From contig JALQPE010002026.1 of NCBI GenBank assembly GCA_030407315.1, positions 1-64,000 on the forward strand: DNA of 64,000 nt, written 5' to 3'. The position numbers were made by a program, and so were the translations under genes. The notes below the pieces were generated by a model, which worked only from the letters and a program-made list of their open reading frames with translations, searched no databases and was not told where the DNA came from. The first letter of the stretch is position 1. Each line of letters begins with the position of its first letter. The DNA is from Asparagopsis taxiformis (taxonomy: Eukaryota; Rhodophyta; Florideophyceae; Bonnemaisoniales; Bonnemaisoniaceae). Of this stretch, positions 20,884 to 64,000 are shown piece after piece.

Positions 20884-23800
20884 TCATGCAGTCCTTGGCG
20901 GATATCCATCTGCTCTTGCAAAAATAGAGAAGGAACCACCATCCATAAACGAAGGACCTCCATGCGTAATTCCTCCATTCGAAGTGCCTTGCTCCACAGA
21001 ACATAATGAAGGGCTACAATTGTGGAGGAGACCAACCTTACGAACCCCTGAAGTGAGAGGGAGAAACCAGGAGCCGGAATCGGTGTTCGGAGCAAACGTA
21101 GTGGGGGAGGACTTCTGCTTGATAACTGGAAGAACAGTAGCGTGTGGTGGAGACAGGTTTTCCTGGTGAGATTCGTCTATGCAAACGTTTCCAGGTGAAG
21201 CAATGTTTCCATCAATAGTCAGGTCAAATACAGTGGTAACAGCCCGAAAAGAAGGTGAACAGGTCTTCTGTAGAATTCTAGAAGACGGGGAAGCTGAGTA
21301 GCAAGCTTGTACTACACAGCCAGAAGCTATTTCTTGTGGCTTTGAAAAGTCCCGAGACGCAGCAGAGGGCGAAGCTGCAAAGGCAGGGTGGGCAGAACTG
21401 AGACGTGCTCCCTTGCAAGGTTTTCCACGAAGCATGACTGCATCCGAATTCTGCCCACAGGAAAAATCCTGCTGTGGTAATGAAGAGGGAACTCCTGTCC
21501 ACGAGTAATATGAATATGGAGAAGAGAAGAATGGTAAAGAAGACCTATTCAAATGTTCGAGAAGGGGTTCTTGACAGAGGTCATGCAGCGTACTAGCCGG
21601 GAGGTTCTCCATCGATTTACAGTGCTCCCGTCCGAATAGAACACGAAGGAGAAACCGTTTAGAACGTTGTCTCTTCACAGATGCTGGAGTAGAATTGGAG
21701 AAACTTTTCAAAGCAAGATGGAGGCTTCCTTTCCAATAGTTTCCGAGTGCCGCTAACATAGCATCCAACTGTCTGTCAGCACCTCCGGAATGCTCTAGAC
21801 CTCGTTTCATTTGTTGATGTGTTGCTTCGAATGATAGCTCAGCTACCTGGCGAGCGTGTCCGAGCAGAGGAACAGTGTGTTCAAATGCCTCAATGAGACA
21901 GTGCAAGTTTGGCTTATTGTCAAGAATCTTCCTTGCCCGGAATCCAGCAGTCTTGTTTTCCATCTCAATGTGGTCATTATCATTCGTTACTATACCTTCT
22001 GTCTGCATCTTCCGTTTCTTCGAGACCGCTGTGCTCCGCTGTCTGGTAGGAACAGTCTTGAGCAGGTCATCCACTAGAGTAGCGTATTCTTTCGATAGCT
22101 GCTGCAGACGACGGAGACTGTTGTGCGCAGAATTCCCTGTAGCTCTCTGTACTGCCTCAGAACCGTCGATATTTTTTCGTGGTAGGAAGTATGTAGCTGC
22201 AGATATAGAGGACAGGAGACGAACAAGTTCTAGAGACAGATGGCGTTGCTCTTCAGAAGCCTGGAGTGACCTTGAACCGCTACCTTCGGATGACCTTGTA
22301 GTCTGCGACTGGAATTTCAGAGAAGACCTGAAGCAGTGTTCGGCGACGAGGAGAACTGCAAATCTGTCCGAGATTCCCATTGTATGAGTTTCACCTGCGT
22401 TGAAGTTATATATCTTGTTCTGATTTGCGAGACCCAATACACGGAGGGCATCCACCATGAACCTGTCGGCCAGCCTTCTCACACCATCATTAGGCAAGCT
22501 TGAAAAAGCATTGTCCAGAGCATCCTTTGCCAGTCCGTGGAGGAGATGGTCAATTCCAACAAACGTCGAACGGTATGGGTCCAGAATAGCAGGTACGACA
22601 GGGATTCGTAGACCATCGTTTCCGAGTGGTGTCCCGGTTGGAACCAGCCCTTTGGACCTAGCTTCATGAAGTAGTCTTTCAATGAGATGCAATGGAGTGT
22701 CTGTGATATTTTGCACTGTTCTCAAACCCAGATACTTCAAGATGTTTGCAGAACTTTCCGATGACTGAACAGCAGCTGTTCGCTCGGATGTGCGAAAGTG
22801 TGTATCAGAGCTCGAATGTAAACGGGTGTCGTAGCCAAACTGCGAGTTATTCCCATATTTCCCCCCTCTTACAAAGAAACACAAATGGCATGGGCAGTCT
22901 GCGTTGTGCCCCATGACATCCAGCACATGAGAACAGGCAGGACAATCCGACACGAAACCAATAAAGTCCAGGAAAATTAGACATTCATTGCCGTCTGGAT
23001 CGACATCACGAAACCCCGACGTACATCCTTGAATAATGTCTCTAGAGATATGTCGAAGGATATGGTTTGTACTAACACCAGGACCTGTGACACCGATAAC
23101 GCGCACAGCAGAACTGTTCCGGCAACAGTCCAGCGGAAGACCCATTGGGAGCATATAGCATCCTCCAGCACTCCCTTTCTTACCAGAGGCTTCATTGAAG
23201 TCATCGCAGTATAAAAGAAATGGATAGACGTAGTATATGGTACCGCAGCTGAGAACCCCACGGAGATGTGTAGGATGAAAGGGGCTGGGGCTCGTGCCTG
23301 GTTTCAATAACTTGACATTATTGATTGCACGAGTTCCGCCGACAACTTTGTAATGCCCTTCAGAGTTGACGAGAAAGAGCAGTTTTTGTGATGGGCCTGG
23401 CGGTCCGGGAGAGCTGACGACAAGCCCAATGAAGAAATGTATACCACAATTTTGAGTAGGGTTGCACTCAGGACTGGGTGATAAAACTGTCAGGTGATCA
23501 CCCGGCCGAGCATATTCCCGGAACGACTCTTTCTGAAGGATGAAGGCGGACCCATATGAATGCGGGGAGACCGAAAGCCTGCTATGAAATGCGGCACCAG
23601 AGTTAATCCACGAAGAAGATGTGAGAGCTTTGAACGACTCATGGCTGGAAGATAGTGATTCCTGTTGGAAAAGGGAACTGAGAGTAGGATCTAGAGGAGA
23701 GGCGTGCCGCCCTGATATCACTCGAAGCTCCACAATACTACCCCCGAAAGCAGGAACCGGAGAGCCATCCTTATCCTCCTCTGCCCTCAGAGTATAGTTT

Positions 23801-24930
23801 TGTCCTTTCAAAGAGTACTCTCTGAATTTTCCTATCCTGGATGTACACACATTACCATGGAAACTTAGTAACTCATCCGAGTCGGAAGCATCCAATTGTG
23901 TGTTATCACGCCACGCAAGGTCGAATATTTGTGGCGTAGTAATGTCTGCTCGTGCATATTCGCTTGGTGGAACGATAAGTACAGGTGCTGATTGGCCTGT
24001 TGTTGCTCGTTCGACCCGGCTTCTTCGTAGAATTGCGGAGGAAGCTACACGGGCTGCACTGCGCTCTACGTTTACAGGAAAATAAACGGTTTCTGAACGC
24101 AACCATGCATTGTAGAATAGCCACGGTCTCACCTTACGCACTATTGTCGAATAATGAGGCAGACCTTGCTGAACATGTTTATTCGTTGAGCCTTTTCTCG
24201 CGAAATCGAACAAAACACGATCTTCCTGCAAGCTAGCGGCAGTACTTTTTGTGGAGCCTGTCAGCTTTGCGACAGTATACAGCGTAGTCCATTGTGTCAT
24301 GTAATTGCGAGCTTTGTCTGGATTGGACGTGTTCATGATAAAGGGAGAAGAGATTAGGAGCTTCGCTTCTGCCTCCTCCTGTAGTAGCAGGTCTTTATCA
24401 TTCGACACGGTATCATGTTCTGAGAATACATCATCGGGTTCGTCAGAACTATCGTGATGGAATTCAGTAGGAACTGTCGCAACAGCAGAAGCAGGTTCAC
24501 TCCTAGAAGGAAGTATCATATCACAATGGTCGGGAATGGTGGATAGGTTTTCAACTGCTGGAGGTGGCAGGGTGTTTCCCTCTTCGCTTTTGGCGTACTC
24601 CATAGAGACAGTGGTATCCATGGGTACCAGAGCAATAGAATGCAAGCTATTGTTCCCAGTTGTAGCCGTATCCAGGACAGGGGAGGAAGGGGGTGTTGCA
24701 TCTGGGAGCCGGTGGTTGATAGCATTTGGACTCTGGGGAATGTTCAAAGTGCTGTCATGGTCTATTTGTGGGGGAGGAAGAGGGTTTTGCATTGGTCTCC
24801 AGCCCATGTGATGGACGGAGAAAGGGTCAGAAACTGTTCTGGTAGTCGAACGCCGAGCCCGATTACGACCAGGGTATACATTGTTGTATCGTAGTCGTAG
24901 GCCAGTCCTAGACTTTCTCGGTCTTGCCAT
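20884..24930 (-). CDS. Large transposase-like protein, TNP2/Plavaka/KDZ type
   Basis: Open for 1378 codons from 25020. The better start is the ATG at 24930 (MARPRKSRTG, ATGG context), giving about 1348 aa. Positions below count from the 25020 frame start. A low-complexity basic/Ser-Pro N-terminus (to about 230) precedes the recognisable core. YVYPFLLYCDDFNEASGKK (about 597-615) resembles the first catalytic Asp block of TNP2-like transposases. LDFIGFVSDCPACSHVLDVM and NADCPCHLC (about 684-714) match the family's Cys cluster. FVGIDHLLHGLAKD (about 820-833) matches the second Asp/His block, and AELSFEATHQQMKRG (about 1060-1074) the terminal Glu helix. The C-terminal 250 residues are Ser-rich. 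No frame breaks are visible. Assignment is by motif order from memory; overall similarity is modest. Hairpins of one family lie on both sides (20530 and 25146). Confidence 0.65.
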   Translation of the reverse strand: MARPRKSRTGLRLRYNNVYPGRNRARRSTTRTVSDPFSVHHMGWRPMQNPLPPPQIDHDSTLNIPQSPNAINHRLPDATPPSSPVLDTATTGNNSLHSIALVPMDTTVSMEYAKSEEGNTLPPPAVENLSTIPDHCDMILPSRSEPASAVATVPTEFHHDSSDEPDDVFSEHDTVSNDKDLLLQEEAEAKLLISSPFIMNTSNPDKARNYMTQWTTLYTVAKLTGSTKSTAASLQEDRVLFDFARKGSTNKHVQQGLPHYSTIVRKVRPWLFYNAWLRSETVYFPVNVERSAARVASSAILRRSRVERATTGQSAPVLIVPPSEYARADITTPQIFDLAWRDNTQLDASDSDELLSFHGNVCTSRIGKFREYSLKGQNYTLRAEEDKDGSPVPAFGGSIVELRVISGRHASPLDPTLSSLFQQESLSSSHESFKALTSSSWINSGAAFHSRLSVSPHSYGSAFILQKESFREYARPGDHLTVLSPSPECNPTQNCGIHFFIGLVVSSPGPPGPSQKLLFLVNSEGHYKVVGGTRAINNVKLLKPGTSPSPFHPTHLRGVLSCGTIYYVYPFLLYCDDFNEASGKKGSAGGCYMLPMGLPLDCCRNSSAVRVIGVTGPGVSTNHILRHISRDIIQGCTSGFRDVDPDGNECLIFLDFIGFVSDCPACSHVLDVMGHNADCPCHLCFFVRGGKYGNNSQFGYDTRLHSSSDTHFRTSERTAAVQSSESSANILKYLGLRTVQNITDTPLHLIERLLHEARSKGLVPTGTPLGNDGLRIPVVPAILDPYRSTFVGIDHLLHGLAKDALDNAFSSLPNDGVRRLADRFMVDALRVLGLANQNKIYNFNAGETHTMGISDRFAVLLVAEHCFRSSLKFQSQTTRSSEGSGSRSLQASEEQRHLSLELVRLLSSISAATYFLPRKNIDGSEAVQRATGNSAHNSLRRLQQLSKEYATLVDDLLKTVPTRQRSTAVSKKRKMQTEGIVTNDNDHIEMENKTAGFRARKILDNKPNLHCLIEAFEHTVPLLGHARQVAELSFEATHQQMKRGLEHSGGADRQLDAMLAALGNYWKGSLHLALKSFSNSTPASVKRQRSKRFLLRVLFGREHCKSMENLPASTLHDLCQEPLLEHLNRSSLPFFSSPYSYYSWTGVPSSLPQQDFSCGQNSDAVMLRGKPCKGARLSSAHPAFAASPSAASRDFSKPQEIASGCVVQACYSASPSSRILQKTCSPSFRAVTTVFDLTIDGNIASPGNVCIDESHQENLSPPHATVLPVIKQKSSPTTFAPNTDSGSWFLPLTSGVRKVGLLHNCSPSLCSVEQGTSNGGITHGGPSFMDGGSFSIFARADGYPPRTA

Positions 24931-25145
24931 GTCTCGATGACAGACAATATGCAGGCTCTGATATGTGTGTGAGGGACCGCGTGTAGGCCTTGCTGTAGTG
25001 AGCATAGAAACGAAACACACAGATGTAAAGCTGTAGAAAGGGAGAACATGAATAAGTCGACCGTTACAGTCTAATAGTTTAACTATGACCTTGCTCAGTT
25101 GAACATACGACTATACTACCCATAAACAGAAATCATTCATGGAAC

Positions 25146-25285
25146 GGGAGATGTTGAAATTTGATAATTTTTTTCGCTACGAAATTACTGCAGTAAAAAG
25201 TGATCTAGGTTGGTGCACTTTGCTAGATCACTTTTTACTGCAGAAATTTCGGAGTGAAAACAATTACCAAATTTCAACATCTCCC
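25146..25285. repeat. Hairpin H2 of the CTGCAGTAAAAAG family
   Basis: A foldback of about 140 bp. The outer arms GGGAGATGTTGAAATTT/AAATTTCAACATCTCCC enclose AATTTTTTTCGC and ATTACTGCAGTAAAAAGTGA, mirrored on the right. The left flank CATGGAACGGG is shared with H3 at 55857. It lies 215 bases upstream of the transposase start and 20 bases left of the copia insertion. Confidence 0.9.
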
Positions 25286-25306: not shown

Positions 25307-25794
25307 TGTTGAAGCACTGGAATTGGCCCTGAGGGGCTCAATTACGTGAGAAAACTTTGACCCTCGATTTCTCTATGAAGGAGTGGTCTGAGCGCTCTGA
25401 AACCTATCTCATCGTGTTCAGCGTGCCCGAATTAGTCGGGTAGCAACTTCTCCGAAGCTTCTACGACCTTTCTTCATGGAGATATTAGCGTCTGAAGTTT
25501 CAATTTGTTTGTCATAGTTTCAATTAGTAATTAGAAATGCCAAGATGGGTTGCCATCATGGCAGAGGGAAAATGTTATGATAAGTGTACACGTGTGGATG
25601 ATATGATAGAGAAGCCCACGTGTACCAGATTGGCAGCGGGTGCTTGCTAGGACAGACTGTCAGTGACAGTCTGTCTGGAGCAGCCTTGAACAGGCTGTCC
25701 TTAGCACCGCCGGCGCACCTCGGCGAGAATACAAATTATGTAGTGAGCTCGCAGATTCAGTAAACGCTCGGTAAGCGACCAATTCGTTTCAACA
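25307..25794 (+). repeat. Copia 5' LTR
   Basis: 488 bp, TG...CA ends. It contains the near-perfect inverted repeat ACAGACTGTCA-GTGACAGTCTGT (about 25653-25677). It has an 11-bp inverted pair ACACGTG-GA/CCCACGTGT around 25590-25622. Confidence 0.95.
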
Positions 25795-25814
25795 GGTTAT
25801 GGGCCCAGCGCGCT
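25795..25814 (+). promoter_or_regulatory. Primer binding site for an internal fragment of initiator tRNA-Met
   Basis: GGTTATGGGCCCAGCGCGCT lies directly after the 5' LTR. Its first 15 bases are complementary to the anticodon-arm segment GCTGGGCCCATAACC of eukaryotic initiator tRNA-Met. Drosophila copia is known to use a tRNA-iMet half cut in the anticodon arm in this way. Confidence 0.85.
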
Positions 25815-34070: not shown

Positions 34071-37000
34071 AACCCTTACGTAAAAGGGGGACGACCGACG
34101 TCGATGATTGGTCCTCCGCAGGCTCACCGATGAACGAGAGTTACGTAAAGCTCACGGCCGCGAAGGCCAACTCGAGTCACATGACACCCGACGTGGGGGA
34201 AGAAACGAAGTCCGACGGGACGAACGAACCTCACACGAAGAGGAAGCCTCGCAGACGAGCGAGACGCGCTACCCGGAAGCACGACGCTTCCGAGCGCGAG
34301 AAAGCCAAGCACGCGGCTTATACGAAGCGTGTCGACGCAAAAGAAGCCATACGGGCTCACACGATGAAGCGACGAACCGCTAGCGAAGACGTAGACCGCG
34401 CGCCGGTCAGGACCGAACCGTTGGTCCTCGACGGGCATACGTGCCTACTTGCGTCGAAGCATTATATCGTGTCCGGAACGATTGGACTAGACCTCAACGT
34501 GATGAGGGCGATTACCATCGCGATGGATACGTGCAGCGGCCACAACTTGATACGAACAAGTTTACTACCCTACGACTGGGTCGACCGCTGTCTACGTGAC
34601 GAAGAGCTACCGAAGCTCGGAGACGCCAACGGGCGACGTTTGCCTATCGAAGGCGCCATCCTGCTTCGTGTCAGGTTAGGGAACTCGCTGTTCCGCGTAA
34701 AATTCTTCGTAGCCAACACGCTGGCTGTTCCCGTTATAATGGGCACGTCGTTCATGTCGAAGCATGTCGATGCTATACGCTGTCGAGCGCAGACAATCGA
34801 CCTCCATCGGGGGGATACGATACCCATTATCGCGGAGGGTGATACGACGACTCCGTACGAGGAGGGGGAAGAGACGAATCCAAACGTGGAACACCCGAGA
34901 CGCCGCGAGCGTAACGCGGCCTCGAATAGGCCGAGCCGAACGTTCTCGGTTCGCCTGACGAAGTACACGCGTGTACCGGCGATGTCGCAACGGACCGTCA
35001 ACGTGACGACGGATGCGACCGGACTCGTGTTCCTCGAACCGAAAGCGTCGGTGCAATTTCGGCATGGGCTGCGCATAGCCAACGGAGTGGTCGACGTAGG
35101 ACCGAGAGAGACGTTCTCTATCATCGTGTCGAACTTCACGAAGAAGGACCGCGAATTGCCGAAAGGCGCAACGATTGCGTACGCGGTACGCTCCCCGTTG
35201 GGAATCGTCCCACTCAAGCGTGAGGGCGGCGAAGCCCTCGCGAAGGTTTTGAACCTACCGCTAGTCGACGCGACGACGCGGACAACTACGAACGGGTTGG
35301 GCGACGAAACGCCAGACCCGTTGGTCAACGAAAAGGGGAACGACCCCGCCACGGATTGGCAGTCGACAATCGATTTGTCGCACCTCGACGACGAGGATTT
35401 ACGAAAGCGCATCAACGAGATGCTAGCTACACATTCGTCAATGTGGACGAGCGGACGCCTCGGCGAAATCAATGCTACGGAGCATCGAATCGAACTCGAA
35501 CCGGGCACGCGGCCCATACGTTCAATGCCCTATCGTCAGGGTCCGGCTCTACGTACGATAGCCGAGGAGCAGATCACGAAGATGCTCAACGAAGGGGTTA
35601 TCGAAACCGCGTCCAGCGAATGGGCGTCACCAATCGTGTTGGTGCCGAAGAAGGACGGATCCTTACGTTTCTGTGTCGATTACAGGCGTTTGAACGCGAA
35701 AACGATCGCTGATTCGTACCCGCTTCCTCGTATGGAAGACTGCCTTGATTCGTTGGGCGACGCCGCCATCTTCACGACACTCGATTGTAACGCCGGTTAC
35801 TGGCAAGTGCCCGTCTCCGCCGAGGACCGTGATAAGACAACGTTTACGTCTTTCATGGGAACGTATCGCTACGTGCGAATGCCATTCGGGCTACGAAATG
35901 CCCCCGCTACGTTTCAGCGGACGTTGGACATCATCCTCTCCGGAGTACGCTGGCAATCGTGCCTGGTCTACTTAGACGACGTAATCGTCTTTTCGAAAGA
36001 CCTCGAGTCTCACCTGGGTCACGTTGACCAGGTGCTTTCCCTGCTACGCGCAGCGGGAGTAACGTTAAAGCTCACGAAGTGCTCGTTCTTTCAACCACGA
36101 GTTGACTACCTGGGGCACGTGATTACCCCAGGGAAGCTGCACGTCGCAGCTCGGAACAAGGAAGCCTTTCGTACGGCTACGTTCCCACGCGACAAGACGC
36201 AATGTCGATCGTTTTTGGGCGCGGCCAACGTTTACCGCCGTTTCGTAAAGGCGTATGCCGAGATCGCTCGGCCACTCAACACGATGTTGAAGAAGGACGC
36301 TTCCCCCGATTGGACGAACCCAACGGACACGCAAACGAATGCGTTCGAAACGTTGAAGACAATACTGGTGTCGCCACCAGTATTGCACCTTCCGAAGGCG
36401 GGACGTCCGTTCATGATCGATACCGACGCGTCGGCGTATCAGCTGGGAGCTACGTTGCTCCAGCAGCAGAACGAAGATAAGCCCAACGAATGGGTGCCGA
36501 TTGGGTACTGGTCGAAGACCCTCAACGAAACCGAACGCGGTTACTCGGCAACGGAGCGCGAGTGCTACTCCGTCGTCTGGGCGATAACGTCGCTCCGACC
36601 CTACGTAGAGGGTCAGCGATTTACCGTACGTACGGATCACGAAGCCTTACGTTGGCTGATGACGTTAACGGACGCGTCCGGACGACTACTACGATGGAGG
36701 CTACGCGTTGCCGAATTCGATTTCGAAGTCACGTACAGGCCTGGGCGCGTGCACCAGGTACCTGACGCTTTATCACGTGTGATATCTACGTATGACGACG
36801 GTCGACCCGTCGACGATGACGTACCATCGTACGGGGACACGGTCCTCGTGACGACTCGCAGTCGGCGACAACCCACACGAAATGGGCAAGGACGAACGAC
36901 GTCCGTACGTAAAAAGGCAACGAATGCCAGGGGTCACGACGACCCGTCGAACGAGACTCGTGATGAACGAACATCGGCCACGACGGCTGGCCACGATGGC

Positions 37001-48967: not shown

Positions 48968-51900
48968 ACGTCCGGTGAATGACCAGCGCAATTGCATTGC
49001 TGGCGAGCCCAGAAATTCTAAAATTTCAGTCAGAAAAAAAATGCAAAAATACATCGATTTGGGCGGTCGAAAGTGCCGTACGGCACACCCCCATCTCAAA
49101 AACATGTTCACATGTGCATGTTTTTGAGAATAGCCCAAAAAATAAAGCAATTCAGGACGTCTGCCGGACATAGGCTTGATTCTAATTTGGCCACAACGGC
49201 CCCAGAAGCTACCAAGCGCCCCGAGCGGCCCCTCCCCGCTCACTTACCCACTCACGCCCATCTTGCAGAAACGTTCCTGCTGGCCTCATCCATGCCTTCA
49301 CATCCACATCATAATCCTCTGCTGAGCTGTTCACCTTGGACGCTCACTGGAAGTACTCGTCTTCGACGTCCGCCAATGCAGGACAACACCATGAATACTA
49401 AACCCACCGTGGATCTCAGTCATCAACGGTGGGCGTCCTATAAATGACTGCTATAGAACCATTGCCCCAAGCCCTCCAGTTTGGACGCTCAGCCAACAGT
49501 GATTGCTGCTCTACCTCCTTGGTCGTTCTCCGATGCATGTAAATGCGCCAAAGTACGACCGATGGGGCAGTCCAAACTTTTTGTACCAGTGCACGCCTAG
49601 GGATACCACAAGGTTCGTCATACACACACAAAGACACAAACACACAAACACACAAACACACAAACACACAAACACACAAACACACAAACACACAAACACA
49701 CAAACACACAAACACACAAACACACAAACACATAAACACACAAACAACCACGCACTGCAGCACCCAACTTTCGCATGCGTCAGTGATGTGCTGCTGCAGT
49801 GTGTATGCGCTGTGCGGTAGCAAGATTTCCATGCTTGCAGCCATTCACATCCAGACATCCAGCCGCCGACCAGGGAAGCCGTTTGCAGCCGATTCTCCCT
49901 TGTCTGCATGGCATCTCGGTGCTGTCAACACTTGCTTAGTTGCTGCGATGCGAGCAAATGTGCAGCACTAGCCTAACTTGAAATGGACGTCCAGTAGAAG
50001 TCCGGCTCGGTTACATTGCTGGTCAGCCCTGAAATTCTAAAATGTTGGGCTGAGAAATAGCTGCAAAACTGTATCCATGTGCAATACTCGACCAACCTGA
50101 AATGGACGTCCGGTGAATGTCCAGCTCAATTGCATTGCTGGCGAGCCCAGAAATTCTAAAATTTCAGTCAGAAAAAAATTGCAAAATTATATCGATTTGG
50201 GCGGTCGAAAGTGCCGTACGGCACACCCCCATCTCAAAAACATGTTCACATGTGCATGTTTTTGAGAATAGCCCAAATTTCAATTCAAATCAAGGTGTCT
50301 AATTTGGCCACAACGGCCCCAGGAACCGGCTGCTGCCCCGGCCGGGGCCGTCACTGGCTTCTGTAAGCACCAACTATAAGCAAAGCCACATCTCACGAAG
50401 GGTCGATTCCAGGCTCAGGCTCAATACGCCAGGGCGAAGTTTTGGTCCTTGTTTCGACATGCTCCCACCCCACTTTCTCACGACAAACAACACTCACACA
50501 TCACGTTACTCATATTCCGTGCACTTTGTATGAGCAGTGGGCCCGCCTGCGTGGTTGCTGTAATGCGTAGATGTGAGCAGCATACGAACAACCCAGAATG
50601 GACGTCTGGTGGATGTCCGGCTCAATTGCATTGCTGGCGAGCCCAGAAATTCTAAAATTTCGGGCAGAAAAAAATTGTGAAAAATCATCGATTTGGGCGG
50701 GTCGATTGTGCCGTACGGCAGACCCCCATCTCAAAAACATGTTCACATGTGCATGTTTTTGAGAATAGCCCAAATTTCAATTCAAATCAAGGTGTCTAAT
50801 TTGGCCACAACGGCCCCAGGAACCGGCTGCCGCCCCGACCGGGGCCGTCACTGGCTTCGGTAAGCACTAACTGTAAGCCAAAATCGCGTCTTACGAAGGG
50901 TCGATTCCAGGCTTCAAGCCCAAGTTATGCTAGGGAGACATCTTTTTCCCTGTTTCATCATGGTCCCACCTTACATCCTCACGACAAACAACACTCACAC
51001 ATCACGTTACTCATATTCCGTGCACTTTGTATGAGTAGTGAGCCCGCCTGCTTAGTTGCTGCAATGCATGGATGTGGGCAGCACACGACCAACCTGAAAT
51101 GGACGTCCGGTGGATGTCCGGCTCAATTGCATTGCTGGCGAGCCCAGAAATTCTAAAATTTCGGGCAGAAAAAAATTGTGAAAAATCATCGATTTGGGCG
51201 GGTCGATTGTGCCGTACGGCAGACCCCCATCTCAAAAACATGTTCACATGTGCATGTTTTTGAGAATAGCCCAAATTTCAATTCAAATCAAGGTGTCTAA
51301 TTTGGCCACAACGGCCCCAGGAACCGGCTGCCGCCCCGACCGGGGCCGTCACTGGCTTCGGTAAGCACTAACTGTAAGCCAAAATCGCGTCTTACGAAGG
51401 GTCGATTCCAGGCTTCAAGCCCAAGTTATGCTAGGGAGACATCTTTTTCCCTGTTTCATCATGGTCCCACCTTACATCCTCACGACAAACAACACTCACA
51501 CATCACGTTACTCATATTCCGTGCACTTTGTATGAGTAGTGAGCCCGCCTGCTTAGTTGCTGCAATGCATGGATGTGGGCAGCACACGACCAACCTGAAA
51601 TGGACGTCCGGTGGATGTCCGGCTCAATGCATTGCTGGCGAGCCCAGAAATTCTAAAATTTCGGGCAGAAAAAAATTGTGAAAAATCATCGATTTGGGCG
51701 GGTCGATTGTGCCGTACGGCAGACCCCCATCTCAAAAACATGTTCACATGTGCATGTTTTTGAGAATAGCCCAAATTTCAATTCAAATCAAGGTGTCTAA
51801 TTTGGCCACAACGGCCCCAGGAACCGGCTGCCGCCCCGACCGGGGTCATCACTGGCTTCTGTAAGCACCAACTGTAAGCCAAAATCGCGTCTTACGAAGG

Positions 51901-52228
51901 GTCGATTTCAGGCTCAACACGTCAGGGACAGGTCTTGGTCCTTGTTTCATCATGGTCCCGCCCTACTCTCTCACGATCAACCTGAAATGGACGTCCGGTG
52001 GATGTCCAGCTCGATTGCATTGCTGGCCAGCCCAGAAATTCTAAAATTTCCGAAAAATCAATTTGGTGGCCCAGCATCTCCTGTGCCGAAAATTCCCGCG
52101 CTCACTTGTGATATACGTCTAGACGTGTTTCGCACTTGTACGCATCAGGGAAGGCGTCACGGAAGGTTGAGACTACGCTACTTGTGTACCGCGTCGTCTG
52201 AAATAGCGAGTAGTGTTTGTTGTATAGT
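48968..52228 (-). repeat. Right arm of the long inverted repeat, with unit expansion
   Basis: Inverted copy of the left arm, longer by about 1.1 kb. The ~500-bp unit is present in three tandem copies (GAACCGGCTGC at about 50322, 50819, 51320, 51820), against one in the left arm. The CTCAAAAACATG hairpin occurs five times (49096, 50234, 50733, 51234, 51737). Confidence 0.9.
49622..49745 (-). repeat. (ACACACAA)n microsatellite, expanded relative to the left arm
   Basis: About 14 eight-base units. The mirror position in the left arm (about 45660-45690) has only about three. It opens several frames that are not genes. Confidence 0.9.
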
Positions 52229-54246: not shown

Positions 54247-54644
54247 GTAAGCAAGGCTGTGTAGCCCAGTCTTCCTCAGAAGCCGAATACATGGCTCTCA
54301 GTGCAGCAGTGAAGGAGGCAATCTGGCTGAGAAACATCGTTGGTTTCAGCAGCAGTACAAATCCTGCAGATCCTATCCTCATCAATGTGGATAATCAAGG
54401 ATCTATCAAAATGGCTAGGAACGATGCTTCTGGAACCCGCACAAAGCATATCGACATTCGGTATCACTTTGTCCGGGATTGCCTCCTCGAAGGAATGTTC
54501 GATATCGACTACTGTCCAACATCTGATATGGTAGCGGATGTCCTCACTAAGCCTCTGCAAAGGATTCAGTTCGTCAAGCTTCGTGAACTTATGGGGGTAA
54601 CTACCAAATCATTAATCGAGAAGGTCAAAGAGGGGGAGTGTTGA
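54247..54644 (+). pseudogene. Copia RNase H C-terminal part (displaced 3' fragment)
   Basis: Resumes the copia frame after the gypsy insertion: KQGCVAQSSSEAEYMALSAA, then LINVDNQGSIKMARND, TKHIDIRYHFVRD and MVADVLTKPL, the normal copia RNase H end. It stops a few bases inside the 3' LTR. It is separated from its N-part by 23.4 kb. Confidence 0.93.
54626..54638 (+). promoter_or_regulatory. Copia polypurine tract
   Basis: AAAGAGGGGGAG lies directly before the 3' LTR, the usual plus-strand primer position. Confidence 0.85.
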
Positions 54645-55126
54645 AGCACTGGAATTGGCCCTGAGGGGCTCAATTACGTGAGAAAACTTTGACCCTCGAT
54701 TTCTCTATGAAGGAGTGGTCTGAGCGCTCTGAAACCTATCTCATCGTGTTCAGCGTGCCCGAATTAGTCGGGTAGCAACTTCTCCGAAGCTTCTACGACC
54801 TTTCTTCATGGAGATATTAGCGTCTGAAGTTTCAATTTGTTTGTCATAGTTTCAATTAGTAATTAGAAATGCCAAGATGGGTTGCCATCATGGCAGAGGG
54901 AAAATGTTATGATAAGTGTACACGTGTGGATGATATGATAGAGAAGCCCACGTGTACCAGATTGGCAGCGGGTGCTTGCTAGGACAGACTGTCAGTGACA
55001 GTCTGTCTGGAGCAGCCTTGAACAGGCTGTCCTCAGCACCGCCGGCGCACCTCGGCGAGAATACAAATTATGTAGTGAGCTCGCAGATTCAGTAAACGCT
55101 CGGTAAGCGACCAATTCGTTTCAACA
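54639..55126 (+). repeat. Copia 3' LTR
   Basis: 488 bp, essentially identical to 25307-25794, followed by the duplicated GAACT. Confidence 0.95.
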
Positions 55127-55131
55127 GAACT

Positions 55132-55869: not shown

Positions 55870-55990
55870 AAAAAATTGGTAATTTTTTTCGCTCCGAAAT
55901 TACTGCAGTAAAAAGTGATCTAGGTTGGTGCACTTTGCTAGATCGCTTTTTACTGCAGTAATTTCGGAGCGAAAAAAACTACCAAATTTT
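55870..55990. repeat. Hairpin H3 of the CTGCAGTAAAAAG family
   Basis: A foldback of 121 bp. The left arm carries GGTAATTTTTTTCGCTCCGA and ATTACTGCAGTAAAAAGTGA; the right arm is complementary with a few mismatches. The left flank CCATGGAACGGG matches H2. It lies about 225 bases beyond the 3' end of the dioxygenase gene. Confidence 0.9.
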
Positions 55991-56215: not shown

Positions 56216-59200
56216 CTATTCAACTGTAATATACTCTTCGCTGCTACTACTTTCCTCTTCCTTATCACTATCCGACACGTAGTCGTGATCGAAATCGTAG
56301 GGCTCCGGCAGAGCATTGGGGTCGTCACTCAGCCCTGGCGCATGAACTAGGTCGTTGACGAGCTCGGAGGAGACACGCGCAGCCATTGTGTGGACCCGAA
56401 TATGGTGACCATACGGCATTCCAGTGTTGGAAAGCCTGGTCTGCACGAAATCGTGGTCCTGCCATCCTGGACCTGCATGTTCCAAGTCTCCACGAGAGAC
56501 AAAAACAGAGAAGGGAGGTATCCAGACCAACTTGGGAACGAGGTGGGGCCAGACGTCCAGGAAGGCCTTGCGTGGGGAGTTGAGGAAGGTATGGCTGCGA
56601 GGTCGTACCAGAATCGGGGAACCCACTGCACCAGTTGCAATGAATGCATAGTCAGGATCTGGTGCAGGTTTACCGTAGTATCGGTTGGGTTCCCCTGGCG
56701 GTGGACCGGGGTATGTGAAGTCCAGATGAGGTATCTGACGATCACAGCCCGACCCTGTGAGCAGCATCCGAAGACCTGTTCTACCGAACCTGAGCTTGGA
56801 GCCTTCCTTGAATCCCTTCAATGACGAAACGGAATCTTCTAAGTGGAGCTTTTCTGCTATAATAGCGAGCAGAACATCCACAGAGACCTTATCGTGAGCT
56901 ATTGGACCAGACGCAAGCGTGTCCAGGTCTTCGACAACGGCCTTGCAGGGGGTCATGTACCGCTGCCGAGACGGCCCCCCTTCTGCATCCTTACCTCGAG
57001 AACCGGAATTCAGAATCGAAATCCACGCACCTTCCTCGTCTTCCGAGAACTTCTTCGCAAAGGCTGCCAGAAGGTCGTGGATACTAGACCGCACTTCCTT
57101 AGCTCCTAGTATGTTCTCCAGGACAACATATCCATCAGAATCAATACTAGCCCTTGCCCGCTCGAAATACACAGCCCTCTCGATGGACGAAGAACCAGCC
57201 ATGGAGTCAATATCCTCCCTCAGTTCCTCCACCTCCCCTTCCGTCAAGTAGAACCCAGAGCGGTGTTCAGGATGAAGTAGGCTCGAAACTGAACGGACGA
57301 ACGATTCAGCTTCGGCCACGGAAGTATTCTCGAGGAGGTGGGGAGGTGGACTCGGCTGTTCGTCCTCGTACCGGTGGACCAGAAACCCCTTCGAAGTCAC
57401 CTTCGATTTCGTGGGGGTTTCTTCCTCCTCCTCACTCTCACCTTCATTGTCACGCTCCTTCTCACCCGAAGGCGGGGGTTGACCAGGAAGCGGAAGGGAG
57501 GGAGGAGGGGAAGAAGTGCTGCCAAGAGCGATGAGCTGCTCTGCAACGGCAGCACTTCTGGTCTCCGACCGAGTAACCCGGGCCGGAAGCGGACTAAAGG
57601 TATCGTCCCTTTTCCTCTTTTCCCCTCGGCGGGTACTCTTGGAGGGCTTCTTGACCTTGCCCAGAGATATGGGAGTCTTCTCTCCTACGGTGCTCCTCTT
57701 GTCCTTGACACCCGCTTCACCCTTGTCCTGTTCCACCGACTCGGTCTTTGAGCCTCCTTTGCGAAAAGGATTGAACTCATCCCCATCCCACGCTTCTTGT
57801 AACGTGACCCCTGCAGGAGGGGTCCAAGAAGAGGCGTCATTGGGTTGACGACCATCATAGCACCGACGGGAGCAGACGAAGACCATGTCTCGCTCACCTT
57901 GATTCAGGTACTTGATGGGGATGAGATGGTGGATGCGGGGATAGTCGCACAAGTTGTGCACAGGCTTAGAGTTGCACGCTGTGCATTTGTGCACAGCGGC
58001 AGAGCCGGGAAAGCGACAGTGCGGTCCAAGAGAGCAAGGGAAGGGGCGTGGAGTAGTTTCGTCGGCCGGAATGCGAATGGCACGCGAAACGGGATACTCC
58101 GCACCACCCCCCAGCGGTTCAGAGACTTCCGCAGTTTCGGGGTTCTGCTGTTCCCCCTTAGGAGTGGGGGGAACTGGAGCAGGGGAGGGTAGTGACACAG
58201 CCATAGGAGACTTGGGGGGAGAAGATGGAGCCCGGGCAGCGGAGGGTGTTGAGACAGCCATGGGAGACTGAGCAGGAGAGGGATGAGGAGAAGGGGTGGT
58301 GGGATTGGGAGGAGAGGGGGAGGGATGAGGAGAAGGGGTGGTGGGATTGGCAGGAGGGGTGGTAGGATTGGCAGGAGGGGTGGTAGGATTGGCAGGAGGG
58401 GTGGTGGGTTTGGCAGGAGGGGTGGTGGGATTGCCTGAGGACCCGGGAGCATTCTGCTGCGTTTGTTCAGGTGGAACAGCAGCAGAAATGTCCAAGGGAC
58501 CAGTTTCATCCTCTGGGAGGGGCTCAGAGGGAAGGGGGACAGGGAGAGGCTCGATGATAGTTTCTCCGAACTGTGTCGGAGAACGATCCTTGCCAGGCAC
58601 TTGCGATGGTGATCCTGGCGGAGGGACAGGTGCAGGAGGAGCACTCGTTGAAGCCCTCGCACCCTCCTCCATTACCACGTCATTGGCGGGAGTGGTATTC
58701 GCAGCAGAGTCCAACGGCTCAGTACGAGGAGGAGTCTGTTGCTTCGGTGCAACATTGAAACGATGCTGGATGACCGAACGGAAATCTTCGATACGAAGAT
58801 CTTGGTTCTCCGTTCTCTTCGGCACCGGCTCCTCCTCGTACTGAACCATACGCTTGAACACGGATTTCCAGGTCGGGATCATTTCCTTTCCATCCGGTTC
58901 AAGGTCTTCCAGGTCTGCCAATTGCTCCGTACTGAGGTCAACCATGGGTGCTAGTTCACGGATGACCTCGTAGAAATCTCTAACGTAATTGAGATATGTA
59001 CGGAGCTGGAGACCTGGGATACGTCCAAACGAATGCATCAGCAGCACAGACCGGTAGTGAAGGCATTTGACCATCAATTCACTAGCACGGTCTTCAGCCT
59101 TCGTGAATGCTGTGTCTTTTAGGACCAGAAGGCTGATGCCGACCTCGTTCTCCTTCCTCCCGGAAGCCATCTTGTAGGCTGCGTACGTGCGAGGCGAACG

Positions 59201-59866
59201 TCGCATATTCATAGCTACATTGACGATGGACGTCACGGTACTCTTCCGGAGGATGCCAGAAAAATGACGTTGGAAGAACCAATTAGACAGCTGCGAAGCC
59301 GTCATGTTGGCCAGATTCCTATCCCCAGGTTGAGCGTACTTGAGGTTGCAATTGTATATGCTAATGATAGCATGTATACGATCCCGGATGGTGGTTGGCA
59401 AAACAGTGTGAACAAGCTCATTCAACCGCTGACTGAGGTAAAGGACATCCTCCATAGTCATTGGCGCACCATCCGGCCTCAAGGCTTCCTGGACAGGAAC
59501 GTTGTCCACAACGGAAGCTAAACGCTCAACCTGTTCCTCCTTCGCCCGCACCAGAGCTCCACGACGATGAAGACCGTCCGCTATGTAGTAGCGTGTTCCA
59601 TCGGGCCCAAATGGTAGATTTACCACAGTCATGGAGCCCACAGAAGAGGTCTGAAAGCCTTCGAGAACCATCTTCTGGAACAGCACTTCAACATGAGAGA
59701 CATCAACCTCGCGGGATGTTTCTTCCGTGACATGAATGTCAGCGATCGGAAGTTTCGTTTCCCTGAACAGGTAGTTCGAAAGCGAGGTGCCAGTGCGGGA
59801 CATGGCAGGGATGGTGAGCTCTCGAGCTGCACTGGTGGTCGACAGAGGGATAGTACGCGGAGGCAT
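56216..59866 (-). CDS. ParB-like / zinc finger / 2OG-Fe(II) dioxygenase fusion protein
   Basis: 1216 aa from ATG at 59866 in an AACATGCC context. Residues 40-110 resemble a ParB/sulfiredoxin-like domain, with RYYIADGLHRRGALVRA (about 92-108) carrying the DGxHRR signature. A helical region continues to about 370. A Pro/Thr-rich linker (380-570; NPTTPPA repeats) follows. A Cys/His cluster (C611, C617, C628, C631, H637, C640, C665, C669) looks like a PHD-like or treble-clef zinc finger. After a basic segment (KRKRDD) comes a dioxygenase domain (about 900-1170) with HxD at about 1047/1049 (PHLDF), distal His about 1130 (GDLEHAGPGW) and a C-terminal Arg about 1157 (HHIRVHT). The acidic tail is DSDKEEESSSSEE. 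No breaks. The domains fit a chromatin or DNA base-oxidising enzyme (TET/JBP-like by analogy), but the substrate is unknown. CT-rich DNA lies upstream (60080-60140). Confidence 0.7.
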   Translation of the reverse strand: MPPRTIPLSTTSAARELTIPAMSRTGTSLSNYLFRETKLPIADIHVTEETSREVDVSHVEVLFQKMVLEGFQTSSVGSMTVVNLPFGPDGTRYYIADGLHRRGALVRAKEEQVERLASVVDNVPVQEALRPDGAPMTMEDVLYLSQRLNELVHTVLPTTIRDRIHAIISIYNCNLKYAQPGDRNLANMTASQLSNWFFQRHFSGILRKSTVTSIVNVAMNMRRSPRTYAAYKMASGRKENEVGISLLVLKDTAFTKAEDRASELMVKCLHYRSVLLMHSFGRIPGLQLRTYLNYVRDFYEVIRELAPMVDLSTEQLADLEDLEPDGKEMIPTWKSVFKRMVQYEEEPVPKRTENQDLRIEDFRSVIQHRFNVAPKQQTPPRTEPLDSAANTTPANDVVMEEGARASTSAPPAPVPPPGSPSQVPGKDRSPTQFGETIIEPLPVPLPSEPLPEDETGPLDISAAVPPEQTQQNAPGSSGNPTTPPAKPTTPPANPTTPPANPTTPPANPTTPSPHPSPSPPNPTTPSPHPSPAQSPMAVSTPSAARAPSSPPKSPMAVSLPSPAPVPPTPKGEQQNPETAEVSEPLGGGAEYPVSRAIRIPADETTPRPFPCSLGPHCRFPGSAAVHKCTACNSKPVHNLCDYPRIHHLIPIKYLNQGERDMVFVCSRRCYDGRQPNDASSWTPPAGVTLQEAWDGDEFNPFRKGGSKTESVEQDKGEAGVKDKRSTVGEKTPISLGKVKKPSKSTRRGEKRKRDDTFSPLPARVTRSETRSAAVAEQLIALGSTSSPPPSLPLPGQPPPSGEKERDNEGESEEEEETPTKSKVTSKGFLVHRYEDEQPSPPPHLLENTSVAEAESFVRSVSSLLHPEHRSGFYLTEGEVEELREDIDSMAGSSSIERAVYFERARASIDSDGYVVLENILGAKEVRSSIHDLLAAFAKKFSEDEEGAWISILNSGSRGKDAEGGPSRQRYMTPCKAVVEDLDTLASGPIAHDKVSVDVLLAIIAEKLHLEDSVSSLKGFKEGSKLRFGRTGLRMLLTGSGCDRQIPHLDFTYPGPPPGEPNRYYGKPAPDPDYAFIATGAVGSPILVRPRSHTFLNSPRKAFLDVWPHLVPKLVWIPPFSVFVSRGDLEHAGPGWQDHDFVQTRLSNTGMPYGHHIRVHTMAARVSSELVNDLVHAPGLSDDPNALPEPYDFDHDYVSDSDKEEESSSSEEYITVE

Positions 59867-60384
59867 GTTGTTTTTGCCGAGTGGGTAGCGCGGAAGTGTA
59901 GTGAGAAAGAGAGGGGGATAGGAGAATAGAGATGGTTGAGGAGAGATAGACTGCCAGTCTACAGTGTCGCTTTAGAGAGACAGTGGGAGGGAGAGTGTGG
60001 TGGATAGTGCCAGAGAGATTGGCAATGAAGTGGTAGAGAGGATCCCTGAAAGGTTGGCAGAGAGAGGTAGGTAGAGGTGGAGAGATTGGTGTAGGGAGTG
60101 AAAGAGAGAAAGAGAGAGAGAGAGAGAGCGGAACAGTGCGTCTCGTAGGGGGAAGTCCTCGATCGGGATTGCTTTTCAGGTGCAGAAGAAGCAGAGAGAG
60201 TAGCAGATGAGTAGGAGCCGAGAAAGAAGAAGTGGATGGTCGTGTAAGGTATGCACTTGAAGGTTGTCCAAACCGGACCGTGGGACAGCGCAATATAACA
60301 ACTAATGCGCATAATATCCGCCGGTTGCGTCCTAATCAATCAGAACTCATATTGAACGGTCATGGAGAGAATGGAGGATGGGCA
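59867..60384 (-). promoter_or_regulatory. Upstream region of the dioxygenase gene, polypyrimidine-rich
   Basis: The coding strand is CT-rich, with a (CT)n run near 60106-60127. No TATA box is clear. Frames here are low-complexity Ser/Leu/Pro and are not taken as genes. Confidence 0.35.
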
Positions 60385-60506
60385 TTAAATTTGGTAATTT
60401 TTTTCGCTCTGAAATTACTGCAGTAAAAAGTGATCTAGCTTTGTGCACTTAGGTAGATCACTTTTTACTGCAGTAATTTCAGAGCGAAAAAAATTTCCAA
60501 ATTTTA
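60385..60506. repeat. Hairpin H4 of the CTGCAGTAAAAAG family
   Basis: 122 bp. TAAATTTGGTAATTTTTTTC and ATTACTGCAGTAAAAAGTGA on the left are mirrored on the right, with a short GCTTTGTGCACTTAGG-type loop. It lies 520 bases upstream of the dioxygenase start. The tail to about 60650 is repeated, inverted, at 61325-61465. Confidence 0.9.
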
Positions 60507-60656
60507 AGCGCATCTTGAGCTGACCCGTGGCGCCTTTTCGGCGACTGCTCTAGCCTGCACTAAACGCGACCGTTGCTTCGATGATTTTATTGAGCAAAAC
60601 AGAATGGCTTACGTTTACTTTCTACAATAAACGGTCTTTGACGCAGCTTGACTGTG

Positions 60657-60890: not shown

Positions 60891-61013
60891 GTAAAATTTG
60901 GTAATTTTTTTGGCTGTGAAATTACTGCAGTAAAAAGCGATCTAGCTTGTGCACTTGGGTAGATCGCTTTTTACTGCAGTAATTTCACAGCCAAAAAAAT
61001 TACCAAATTTTAC
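60891..61013. repeat. Hairpin H5: perfect 54-bp stem, 15-nt loop
   Basis: The left arm 60891-60944 starts GTAAAATTTGGTAATTTTTT. The right arm 60960-61013 is its exact reverse complement over 54 bases. The loop is GCTTGTGCACTTGGG. This is the best preserved member of the family. Confidence 0.95.
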
Positions 61014-61482: not shown

Positions 61483-61527
61483 GTAAAATTTGGTAATTTT
61501 TTTGGCTCTGAAATTACCAAATTTTAC
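61483..61527. repeat. Hairpin H6: deleted member of the family
   Basis: GTAAAATTTGGTAATTT and AAATTACCAAATTTTAC pair around TTTTGGCTCTG. It keeps the outer stem of H5 but lacks the inner CTGCAGTAAAAAG part. Its flanks are the inverted flanks of H5, so it is the same locus duplicated. It lies about 150 bases beyond the methyltransferase-SET gene. Confidence 0.85.
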
Positions 61528-61673
61528 GCTCGTATTTTACGTCGTTTAGGGGACCTGTGCAAGGATTTCCCTCCTGGCTCACATACACGTACTTGAACTA
61601 CAATTCTATGAACAGAGTTTAAAGGAAGATGGGAAAAATTTACTTCTCAACATTTCTCCAGACAGGGTACTGG

Positions 61674-64000
61674 TTATACGGAAAAGTATTCGTGTCCGTA
61701 CTCGATGAATAACTCTGAGCCAGCTGAAATGGGCACATTGGCAGTGACGCATACAACTTGATAGGTTGATACAGAGGTCTCATCAAGAACTTCTTGTATG
61801 GGGGAAGAGAAACTAACATTAGCAGAACGCGACGGACGCTCAGTTCCCTCCGCTGGGTCCACAAACGTTGGGTCGTTGATTTTCGATGCCGCACAATACT
61901 CGAATGGAACAATGAAGATTGGACTTGCAGACGTGGATGGCATCAGACATTTCACATTTGCATCCTTAATTTGAACAGCGTACTTCTGGAAACGCTCAAT
62001 CGAGAAGGAAGTAGGTCCAGTACCGAAAGTCTTCAACTTCGCCTTGTACAAATCCTTGTAAACCACAGACCCGAAATAGTACCCTACGATATCTCCAGGA
62101 TCAATATCCACTCTTGCAAACAGACCGTCACCAGCCGAAGGAATCGTTGACGCTGCGACGTATACATTGTGTGCCATCGCGTCTATTGACAGCAGGGTTT
62201 TAATATCCACGGTAGACAACAAACCCAGCAGCGATTGTGGCCACTTATCAATGGGTTGGTCTGTCAACTCCTTGTGCTGGTCCGGAATGCACCAGATGCC
62301 AGTAAGAAAGCTGATGAGGTGGGGCGGAAGTTTGGTTGAAATGGGCACTTTTGAGGTTGTCTTCAATGATGAACTCTCTTCCGAAGTTCCCAGACGAGCA
62401 GAAGCCAGCTGCTGTAGGGCAGTCGTGGACTGCTGGGCAAAGTTCCCAATAGAGACCTGGTGGAGAAATGCGACGTTGACTCTAGGAAGAGACAGTTCGT
62501 AGCAATCCTTGAACTTCTCACACCCGACAAACCTCCTGTACTGACCATGGTGCATTGTCAGGCATGCAACAGCAGTGGAGAAAGTTCCAGCAAACATGTC
62601 AACAACCAGGTCGCCCTGGTTTGAGAAACGCCCAATGAGCTCTTGCATGAGAGCGACGGTCTTCTGCTCGGGGCGCAACGTAACCTTCTTCTTGTCCTTG
62701 TCCATATATTTCACCGTCTCCGACGCAGTGATCCGCGGGATGTTGTCGATGACATTTGTCCAAGCCTTGAATCTAGAAGGTATGTATCCGGCATTTCGGT
62801 AATTAACCATCCCCCAGCCTTCTCTCCCCTTGCCGAGCTTGGTGGCATGTACGACCAACTCCACCATATTCAACAAACTTGTCGTGATACGATACGGGGG
62901 GATGTGAAATGTGTCGGACTCCGAGTACACACAATAGGCTGCGAATCAACGGCAAACATAGGATAGCCGGCAGAGTACTTCACTTTGCGGAGCTCGTAAA
63001 CCCAATTGTAGAACAGAGCAGCAGATGTGAATATGAGAACATGACCACCCTTGCGCGTCACCTTGGAAATTTCAGCTACCGTGTCTTCGATTTCTTCCTG
63101 ACGGAGGACATCGTAACCAGAGTTTCCTCTGCCGGACATACGCCTAGTATTGTACGGCGGGTCAGTGAGGACCAACTGAGCACCTTCCCGGATTTGCGGC
63201 TTACCAGGATTGTCAACGGCGTCGTAGTTTTTCAGAAGGTCTCGGAAACTACAGTTGAATGTATGTAGGAAACATCCTTTCATGTCCTCCAGTTCCGCAG
63301 GAATTAACACTTCCTCTTCGACCCGCATGGAGTTCACATCAGCTTCGTTTGGACCGGTGCTGCTGCTAGCCGGGTTAGCCCCTGAGCTTGCTGCACCGAT
63401 CGTACTGACCTCTAGACGCCTACGCTTATTCGGGTTCGCGGCCACGGCTTCCGACACCTGTCGGGTTACCGAAGATTCCCGCACTGGAGAAGCTGTCGTC
63501 TCCATTTCTCTGAACAGCTCCTCATTTGGGTCGGGCGTTGATTGCGGCTCTTCTGTGAGGCTGAACGCTGTGAGCTGCCTTTCCACCATCGCCAGTGCCG
63601 GAATAGTCGTGAACCTCCCGGAAACCGGGGAACCGGGGGACGGCTGGAAGCTCTGTATGAACGGTATATCTTGCGGAGCCGAGACAGATAGGTCGAACAA
63701 TTTGTCATTGCGACATATTGCCATTAAGTGTTCCCAGAATGACTTTGCACAGAGGCGCATCTGAGCGTCTTGCAGCAGCGTACGATGGACAGCAGCACTT
63801 GAAATGCTTGCCGAGTGTTGCACTCTTCGAACAGCTCCTCTGCCATGCAACAAGGTCTTCAGCTCTCGAAGCGGTGAAAAGCCCCTATTTTCCGAGTCCA
63901 GGACGTGGTACGTAAACAGTCTCTGGTCGTAAAGAAGGTAAGGTTGTAGGAGCTCTTCTGCACCGCCTGACCCCAAGGATTTTGCCAACTCATCCCATGC
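61674..64000 (-). CDS. Beta-class DNA amino-methyltransferase fused to a SET domain (partial, one frameshift)
   Basis: The gene runs in from the right edge (no start inside). The first frame (64000-62870) has a Ser/Pro-rich N-part, then LVLTDPPYNTRRMSG (motif IV, DPPY about 63161-63150) and VTRKGGHVLIFTSAALFYNW. The second frame (62930-61674) continues with DTFHIPPYR and GMVNYRNAGYIPSRF, then RPEQKTVALMQELIGRF and GDLVVDMFAGTFSTAVACL (motif I). Motif IV before motif I is the beta-class order. After a linker come SET-like motifs: PSAGDGLFARVDIDPGDIVG, then a FVDPAEG-RPSRSANVSF segment where SET proteins have NHxxxPN, and ITxGSELFIEYGHE-like PISAGSELFIEYGHE at the end. The frames join in a GTGTGT run at 62927-62932, consistent with dinucleotide slippage; an intron or real pseudogene cannot be excluded. 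Likely substrates are adenine or cytosine N-methylation of DNA plus lysine methylation. Confidence 0.75.

Follow-up and report, generated by a model that had tools for sequence, protein, structure and literature searches.

We analyzed a stretch of 64,000 nucleotides from the red alga Asparagopsis taxiformis (GenBank assembly GCA_030407315.1, contig JALQPE010002026.1, positions 1 to 64,000; C1900:1-64000 in our contig numbering), here called the window, and found three large minus-strand genes enclosed in one mobile element: a transposase-like gene (gene 1), an oxygenase-like gene (gene 2) and a gene joining a DNA amino-methyltransferase to a SET domain (gene 3). The contig was read to its end at 82,737 and compared with further copies in the 141.5-Mb assembly; C-numbers (C1824, C1956, C2525 etc.) denote contigs of the same assembly bearing these copies. 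In contig coordinates, which equal window coordinates, the element spans 18446-70956, its right end lying 6,956 bases past the window. A sequence-only reading of the window had placed the three genes in a row once a Copia insertion is removed, and the frames at 20887-25110, 56219-59971 and 61677-65440 agree with this. It had also suggested that they form a single element, which holds with wider bounds (starting at 18446 and ending at 70956) and two more genes, genes 4 and 5. The features other than the hairpins are as follows.

18444-18445, no strand: left copy of the target-site duplication (TSD), TA, from comparison with an uninterrupted Gypsy paralogue at 35520-35600
18446-18459, plus strand: left terminal inverted repeat, CACAGGATAAGCAA, 14 bp, from comparison of ends between copies
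20887-25110, minus strand: gene 1, transposase-like frame of 1408 amino acids from stop to stop, recognized by conserved blocks
25307-55127, plus strand: Copia insertion, not part of the element, with long terminal repeats (LTRs) at 25307-25795 and 54639-55127 that are 99.8% alike
56219-59971, minus strand: gene 2, 1251 amino acids, with a ParB-like N terminus, a middle part resembling Cys/His zinc-binding sequence (by eye) and a C terminus like 2-oxoglutarate (2OG)-Fe(II) oxygenases
61677-62945, minus strand: gene 3, 3' frame, 423 amino acids, with the rest of the amino-methyltransferase domain (FAGT) and SET, from Pfam
62873-65440, minus strand, running past the window end at 64000: gene 3, 5' frame, 856 amino acids, with the DPPY motif and a putative degenerate ParB-like N terminus
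66445-68130, plus strand, outside the window: gene 4, open frame
68274-69992, minus strand, outside the window: gene 5, open frame
70943-70956, outside the window: right terminal inverted repeat, inverse of the left end
70957-70958, no strand, outside the window: right copy of the TSD, TA, from the same Gypsy comparison

Element boundaries, copies and selection

The window copy sits in a Gypsy element, and the intact paralogue at 35520-35600 serves as the empty site, giving a 2-bp TSD of TA. The left end at 18446 was common to the window copy, C1956 and C2525, and the right end at 70956 to nine of the ten compared loci (C1824, C134, C215, C2525, C321, C1847, C2378, C544 and C327); in the tenth, C1956, similarity breaks off earlier, at the hairpin at 65515-65636. 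Across the genome, a 30-mer from the left end was found at 193 places and a 37-mer from the right end at 155 (up to three mismatches), with 0 for reversed-pattern controls. Using 100 of the 193 left places, 100 of the 155 right places and two ends added by hand, we formed 17 end pairs. Both termini had the form CACAGGATAAGCAA...TTGCTTATCCTGTG, of the CAC...GTG type, in 13 fetched pairs, the window copy and C2525, with a single difference in C644 and likewise in C2525.

These 15 end pairs (13 fetched, the window and C2525, with two pairs starting at a contig end excluded) were used to count TSDs. An exact 2-bp TSD was present in 8 of the 13 fetched pairs (GT, TC, TG, TG, TC, CA, CT and CT) and in 10 of 15 overall, including TA in the window and CA in C2525, for which the chance with random flanks is about 2e-9; the TSD was never longer than 2 bp. 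Eight pairs were spaced 21.5-22.8 kb (C2078, C86, C2263, C1726, C1754, C1847, C1986 and C1844) and C2525 measured 16.6 kb from end to end, while the remaining 8 of the 17, including that of the window, were spaced 29.7-52.5 kb and presumably hold insertions. As C98 and C384 share both flanks except for the first base or so (L047, L048, L061 and L062), they represent one insertion seen twice, and the copy numbers thus include allelic or duplicated contigs.

Genome-wide searches covered genes 1, 2, 3 and 5, for gene 3 with its SET part, and their locus counts are lower bounds: at least 99 scored loci for gene 3, 33 for gene 1, 37 for gene 2 and 76 for gene 5. Among the matches listed, to which the following fractions also refer, gene 3 lay within 20 kb of 25 of the 37 gene-2 loci and 12 of the 33 gene-1 loci, against a chance expectation of about 3%. 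The sequence-only reading had proposed a search for other loci with the three genes, and nine gene-1 loci besides the window have both genes 2 and 3 within 20 kb; the window copy falls outside this set because the Copia insertion separates its genes. Gene 3 was also within 12 kb of 44 of the 76 gene-5 loci, mostly at a few fixed spacings. It was missing from the neighborhood of 12 of the 37 gene-2 loci, 21 of the 33 gene-1 loci and 32 of the 76 gene-5 loci, which may reflect contig ends, insertions or deletion variants, or matches not listed.

The boundary test had been set in advance as shared ends around all the genes, and common termini, mostly with 2-bp TSDs, do enclose the set in several copies. 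The two contrary outcomes named with it, single-copy host genes and genes each with ends of their own, were not seen among the copies compared: the former are ruled out by copy number, no copy had ends around one gene alone, and inverted repeats with target duplications were found only at the outer ends.

To assess selection, we computed pairwise ratios of nonsynonymous to synonymous substitution rates (dN/dS; Nei-Gojobori) between subfamilies. For gene 4 the ratio was 0.12-0.15 and for gene 3 0.12-0.17; gene 1 gave 0.17 and 0.19 in two segments of a single copy, the one gene-2 pair gave 0.20, and gene 5 gave 0.25-0.28. In two further pairs of gene 3 the synonymous sites were saturated and no ratio could be obtained, and near-identical pairs within subfamilies gave ratios of 0 to 2.2, with too few changes for judging. 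The low ratios between subfamilies indicate that all five genes were kept working during divergence, and for each of them two or three subfamilies contain at least one copy with an open frame. Genes 2-5 could in principle be passengers captured by an ordinary transposon and no longer of use to it, as the truncated or broken state of several compared copies and the frame split in the largest group with an identical gene 3 protein (20 loci) would suggest, but with dN/dS of 0.12-0.28 over five genes and these open frames in different subfamilies we regard this as unlikely.

For genes 4 and 5, neither Pfam nor NCBIfam gave a match that passed the cut-off; the N terminus of gene 5 may resemble Tudor/Agenet domains. 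Pfam recognized no tyrosine recombinase in the five frames. In giant elements of the Starship type, the captain gene is a tyrosine recombinase.

The window copy is split by the 29.8-kb Copia insertion, itself broken by a Gypsy element (one of two Gypsy copies) and satellite-like DNA; C1824 and C1956 lack it and go from 25308 directly to 55127. The close similarity of the Copia LTRs suggests a recent insertion. Within the nested insertions, satellite-like repeats of about 500 bp, direct and inverted, occupy 44175-52228, and similar DNA flanks C2525 and C321. At C2378:63018-63862 (L026/L027), a copy abuts gene 1 of a more distant subfamily (74% DNA) as an insertion into that gene would, as if the element had nested into its own kind.

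Proteins encoded by genes 1 to 3

Gene 3 has the clearest assignment. In an open copy, the N6_N4_Mtase domain was found at E 7e-14 (PF01555, residues 755-982, 52.7 bits against a cut-off of 26.7), SET at 3.5e-5 (PF00856, 24.6 bits against 22.4) and the phage DNA methyltransferase family phrog_67 at 1e-24. The fusion of a DNA amino-methyltransferase with SET, as read from the sequence earlier, is thus confirmed above the Pfam cut-offs. Motif IV, DPPY (DPPF in one relative), precedes motif I, FAGT/FSGT (FxGT), an order that we take to be that of the beta class of N6_N4 DNA amino-methyltransferases. At E up to 1, SET was found in all 14 aligned gene 3 sequences and N6_N4_Mtase in 13, the other sequence presumably being a C-terminal fragment. 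Across the 14, N1208 is invariant and Y1248 nearly so, positions that hold the catalytic Asn and Tyr of SET domains, with AN in place of NHS.

In the window copy, gene 3 consists of two frames overlapping at 62873-62945, split by a one-base difference from the open copies; some other copies have a single frame of 1203-1255 amino acids. The window is one of the 20 loci with an identical protein, all frame-split, and intact copies exist elsewhere. The split might mean a programmed shift, two working proteins or a dependence on other copies.

Eight sequences of the gene 1 family share the invariant blocks D...DxPA...PCHxC...FE..HQ..K, and gene 1 would encode a DDE transposase, probably of the broad CACTA/EnSpm/Plavaka group. 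CACTA transposases are defined by DDE with C(2)C / H(3-4)H motifs; gene 1 has an invariant D, PCHxC and FE..HQ..K, and no profile match. The termini are of the CACTA/EnSpm form, 5'-CAC...GTG-3' with inverted repeats, and these ends together with the 2-bp TSD make the CACTA group the best guess for gene 1 and the element. TSDs in the CACTA group measure 2-4 bp, and the 2 bp observed here fits that range and not the single value of 3 bp found in print. That value is given for EnSpm (PMC12730594). The Plavaka profile PF18759 matched none of the eight gene 1 family members at E 10; it matched 123 scored places in the same genome and none in 14 control genomes.

The sequence-only reading had described gene 1 as a TNP2/Plavaka/KDZ-like transposase. 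A transposase is our tentative reading of the invariant blocks; the KDZ part (Kyakuja-Dileera-Zisupton) was given up. Transposons of the KDZ group do carry oxygenase genes, but their TSDs are printed as 7 bp in Kyakuja and 8 bp in Zisupton, and the difference in TSD length excludes both (PMC12730594). With real inverted CAC...GTG ends and no Pfam match at E 10 in addition, we consider a KDZ transposon very unlikely.

In gene 2, the motif HxD...H...R, which in 2OG-Fe(II) oxygenases forms the facial triad on a double-stranded beta-helix, has both H residues and the R invariant, with the D of HxD present in six of seven sequences. Foldseek with the oxygenase domain gave 50 listed rows, 41 of which were by title oxygenases of the 2OG fold, many repeating one protein. 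Profile searches gave less: the window protein had no Pfam match even at E 10 and none to a 2OG profile, five gene-2 sequences matched three unrelated families weakly (best E 0.053), and PF12851 (Tet_JBP) matched neither gene 2 nor its relatives. Distant TET-like types are hard to detect by sequence (PMC12730594). For ParB, Pfam had no match in genes 2 and 3. Gene 2 is probably an iron/2-oxoglutarate oxygenase, the oxygenase and ParB assignments being weak ones that draw on motifs and on weak profile or fold matches. Of the ParB/zinc finger/2OG dioxygenase fusion proposed earlier, the conserved motif residues and the weak ParB and fold matches remain, and a 2OG or Tet_JBP profile match is lacking.

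Other repeats hold further 2OG-type genes, at 7313-9729 in the window (frame 8470-9213, minus strand), C1956:2739-6368, C2525:14057-18148 and C215:38094-39512. They are 27-31% identical to the C-terminal part of gene 2, and some have a ParB-like N terminus by eye. Those found outside the window, three in number, are no more than about 1.2 kb away from the end or a break of an element copy. These genes may represent a second family of oxygenase-carrying elements.

In another reading, the element would be what is left of a giant virus, a Polinton or a similar large virus-like element. This could draw on the phage-like methyltransferase, the weak ParB-like affinities, the large open frames between hairpins and two gene-2 sequences that Pfam links weakly to a baculovirus family (E 0.4). 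We consider this very improbable: the element has 14-bp inverted ends with 2-bp duplications, the five frames gave no Pfam match better than E 0.01 besides the methyltransferase and SET, and a pattern search of 2.9 million viral contigs gave 22 matches, none of them a relative of gene 3.

Hairpins and inverted cassettes

As the sequence-only reading had noticed, a single family of hairpins flanks each of genes 1, 2 and 3. These palindromes have near-perfect stems, and most are 120-140 bp long, one being 61 bp. The hairpins of the window copy, none with a strand, are the following.

20530-20590: hairpin, 61-bp palindrome, downstream of gene 1
25146-25285: hairpin between genes 1 and 2
55871-55990: hairpin downstream of gene 2
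60377-60514: hairpin upstream of gene 2
60891-61013: hairpin downstream of gene 3
61483-61527: short hairpin downstream of gene 3
65515-65636: hairpin, outside the window

The core of the hairpin family was found at 662 places in the genome, compared with 0 for the reversed pattern. Palindromes also occur in other repeats of the window, so palindromes as such are not specific to the element. In an alignment of ten hairpins, 13 of 55 pairs were changed on both sides with the pairing kept, and two hairpins of C2525 (75% subfamily) have CTCGAG for CTGCAG in both arms. Such paired changes could alternatively come from gene conversion between the arms.

Wherever the order was visible, genes 1, 2, 3, 4 and 5 followed one another in this order relative to the outer ends. 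Their orientation varied: genes 2 and 3 are both reversed in the 87% subfamily (C134, C2263, C2078, C1726, C635 and C2077), and only gene 3 is reversed in the 75% subfamily (where gene 2 is partial in C321 and was not found in C2525). In total, genes 3 and 5 were on the same strand at 22 loci and on opposite strands at 22. As the neighboring genes 2 and 3 were inverted without a change in order, the pattern implies two separate inversions in place. We infer that the cassettes were flipped by recombination from hairpin to hairpin.

Action of the element and its relation to known transposons

Our preferred reading, which we hold to be reasonably probable, is that of a single DNA transposon of about 22 kb in which the proteins encoded by genes 2 and 3 would target the DNA and nucleosomes of the element itself, keeping it readable or hidden. 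The transposon moves as one unit and its cargo is under selection; the transposase of gene 1 would move it, by DDE chemistry. The domains of gene 3 are evident, and the protein would methylate the exocyclic amino group of DNA (most likely N6-adenine, possibly N4-cytosine) while its SET part methylates a nearby histone, so that one protein would write two marks. Gene 2, if active as an oxygenase, would oxidize or remove a methyl group from DNA or histone, and the ParB-like N termini may target both proteins by holding them on element DNA. The likeliest purpose would be to keep the element readable for its own transposase or hidden from host silencing, as proposed for TET/JBP-carrying transposons. 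The hairpins would delimit gene cassettes, and recombination between hairpins would have inverted cassettes in evolution. Taken together, the predicted proteins suggest an element that edits its own chemical marks.

The literature offers a parallel for the pairing of enzymes. TET-carrying transposons are thought to escape silencing through their oxygenase, and CcTET acts on N6-methyladenine too (PMC12730594); a writer and an oxidizer of one N-methyl mark would therefore make a coherent reading. PF00145 (C5 methyltransferase) had no match in the genome in a search that is blind to introns and may miss such genes; the absence, if real, would be a weak argument against 5-methylcytosine as the substrate. 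The genome searches with PF12851 and PF05063 had no match but none in the controls either and are uninformative. A single chitin synthase fragment of the genome was distant from the six chitin synthase sequences that it matched, which are fungal or oomycete.

Several results weigh against the preferred reading. On the side of the unit, 5 of the 15 end pairs (C1847, C384, C1754, C98 and C2026) lack an exact 2-bp duplication. Among the matches listed, no scored gene 3 lies within 20 kb of 21 of the 33 gene-1 loci, including that of the window, and the pairs C86 and C1754, whose length is normal, contain gene 1 without a scored gene 3 between their ends. Gene 1 had no Pfam match even at E 10 with eight family members, and when aligned with a Plavaka protein from this genome it scored 24.3, inside the range of 20 shuffled controls (up to 25.9); the best local match fell on the second conserved block and another on the third, at a score within the shuffles. 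Structure models for gene 1 and the oxygenase domain were poor (predicted local distance difference test, pLDDT, of 54 and 41). Foldseek with this gene 1 model and sequence searches of solved structures with genes 1 and 2 found nothing of use, and for the oxygenase domain no Foldseek match reached E 0.001, and the best VIA Z for this domain was 5.5, under the trust level of the tool. ParB (phrog_1033) matched weakly, with E 0.065 for gene 2, E 0.014 for the gene 3 relative P0004 and no match for gene 3 itself, and genes 2 and 3 had no domain in common when their profiles were compared. Finally, the 20 loci that are frame-split in gene 3 may fail to yield the fusion protein.

The same transposon might instead turn its enzymes outward, to mark or silence host genes or rival elements, or use methylation to gate transposition through the hairpins and ends. 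Element ends, genes and selection would be as in the preferred reading, and the hairpin stems contain a fixed GATC, a site often used by bacterial relatives of such methyltransferases. The findings do not separate inward from outward action, and the PF00145 search without a match also counts against this alternative, which we consider possible but distinctly less probable. More tentative, and in our view doubtful, is a self-addressed system in which the hairpins serve as address and insulator, the ParB-like parts load and spread, gene 3 writes both marks and gene 2 oxidizes; the element would then switch between hidden and movable states, and cassettes would flip or be exchanged, somewhat like the integron cassettes of bacteria.

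Returning to the transposon that acts on itself, the closest known systems are the TET/JBP-carrying DNA transposons of fungi (Kyakuja, Zisupton, EnSpm, PlavakaB and others; PMC12730594). Like these, the element has an open oxygenase-like gene presumed to act on modified bases, and EnSpm members share the CAC...GTG ends; unlike these, its oxygenase-like gene lacks a Tet_JBP match and has ParB-like and zinc-like parts, and the element also contains a methyltransferase-SET gene and two others. The combination of a 2-bp TSD with CAC...GTG matches no printed class exactly, EnSpm having 3 bp, PlavakaA 2 bp with TGT...ACA, and PlavakaB 2-3 bp with CATCA (PMC12730594). SET domains are carried by HarbingerS and MuDR families of Phytophthora (Repbase Reports as cited in PMC12730594); these share the histone-methyltransferase type of domain, which is here fused to a bacterial-type DNA amino-methyltransferase. 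The N4CMT protein of bdelloid rotifers is similar in joining a permuted N6_N4_Mtase of bacterial type to a chromatin domain in a eukaryote, but it is a host gene with a chromodomain, a reader, and acts on transposons, whereas here a transposon gene carries SET, a writer type (PMC8885841).

Two further systems were compared. The Plavaka giant repeats of Amoebidium form clusters of up to 50 kb of repeated, intron-poor genes with a Plavaka-type transposase; they carry many tyrosine recombinase genes, of which none was recognized here, and the account available is silent on ends, duplications and methyltransferase-SET genes (PMC11244446). Enlarged En/Spm elements of Chondrus crispus, with 16-20 kb and 4-5 frames, are alike in size and gene number and perhaps in superfamily, and the account available does not mention epigenetic enzymes (PMC6431247). 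Our searches of open-license literature turned up no previous account of a DNA-methyltransferase-SET protein carried by a transposon.

We describe the element as a large transposon of CACTA-like type that carries an epigenetic cassette, in a field where transposons with an oxygenase or a SET gene were already known. With more than 150 places per end, many of them near-identical, marks written by a transposon on itself could be tested in one long-read methylation run. The N6_N4_Mtase of rotifers was stated in 2022 to be without eukaryotic homologues (PMC8885841), and a second eukaryotic branch, residing in a mobile element, therefore bears on how eukaryotes gain DNA marks.

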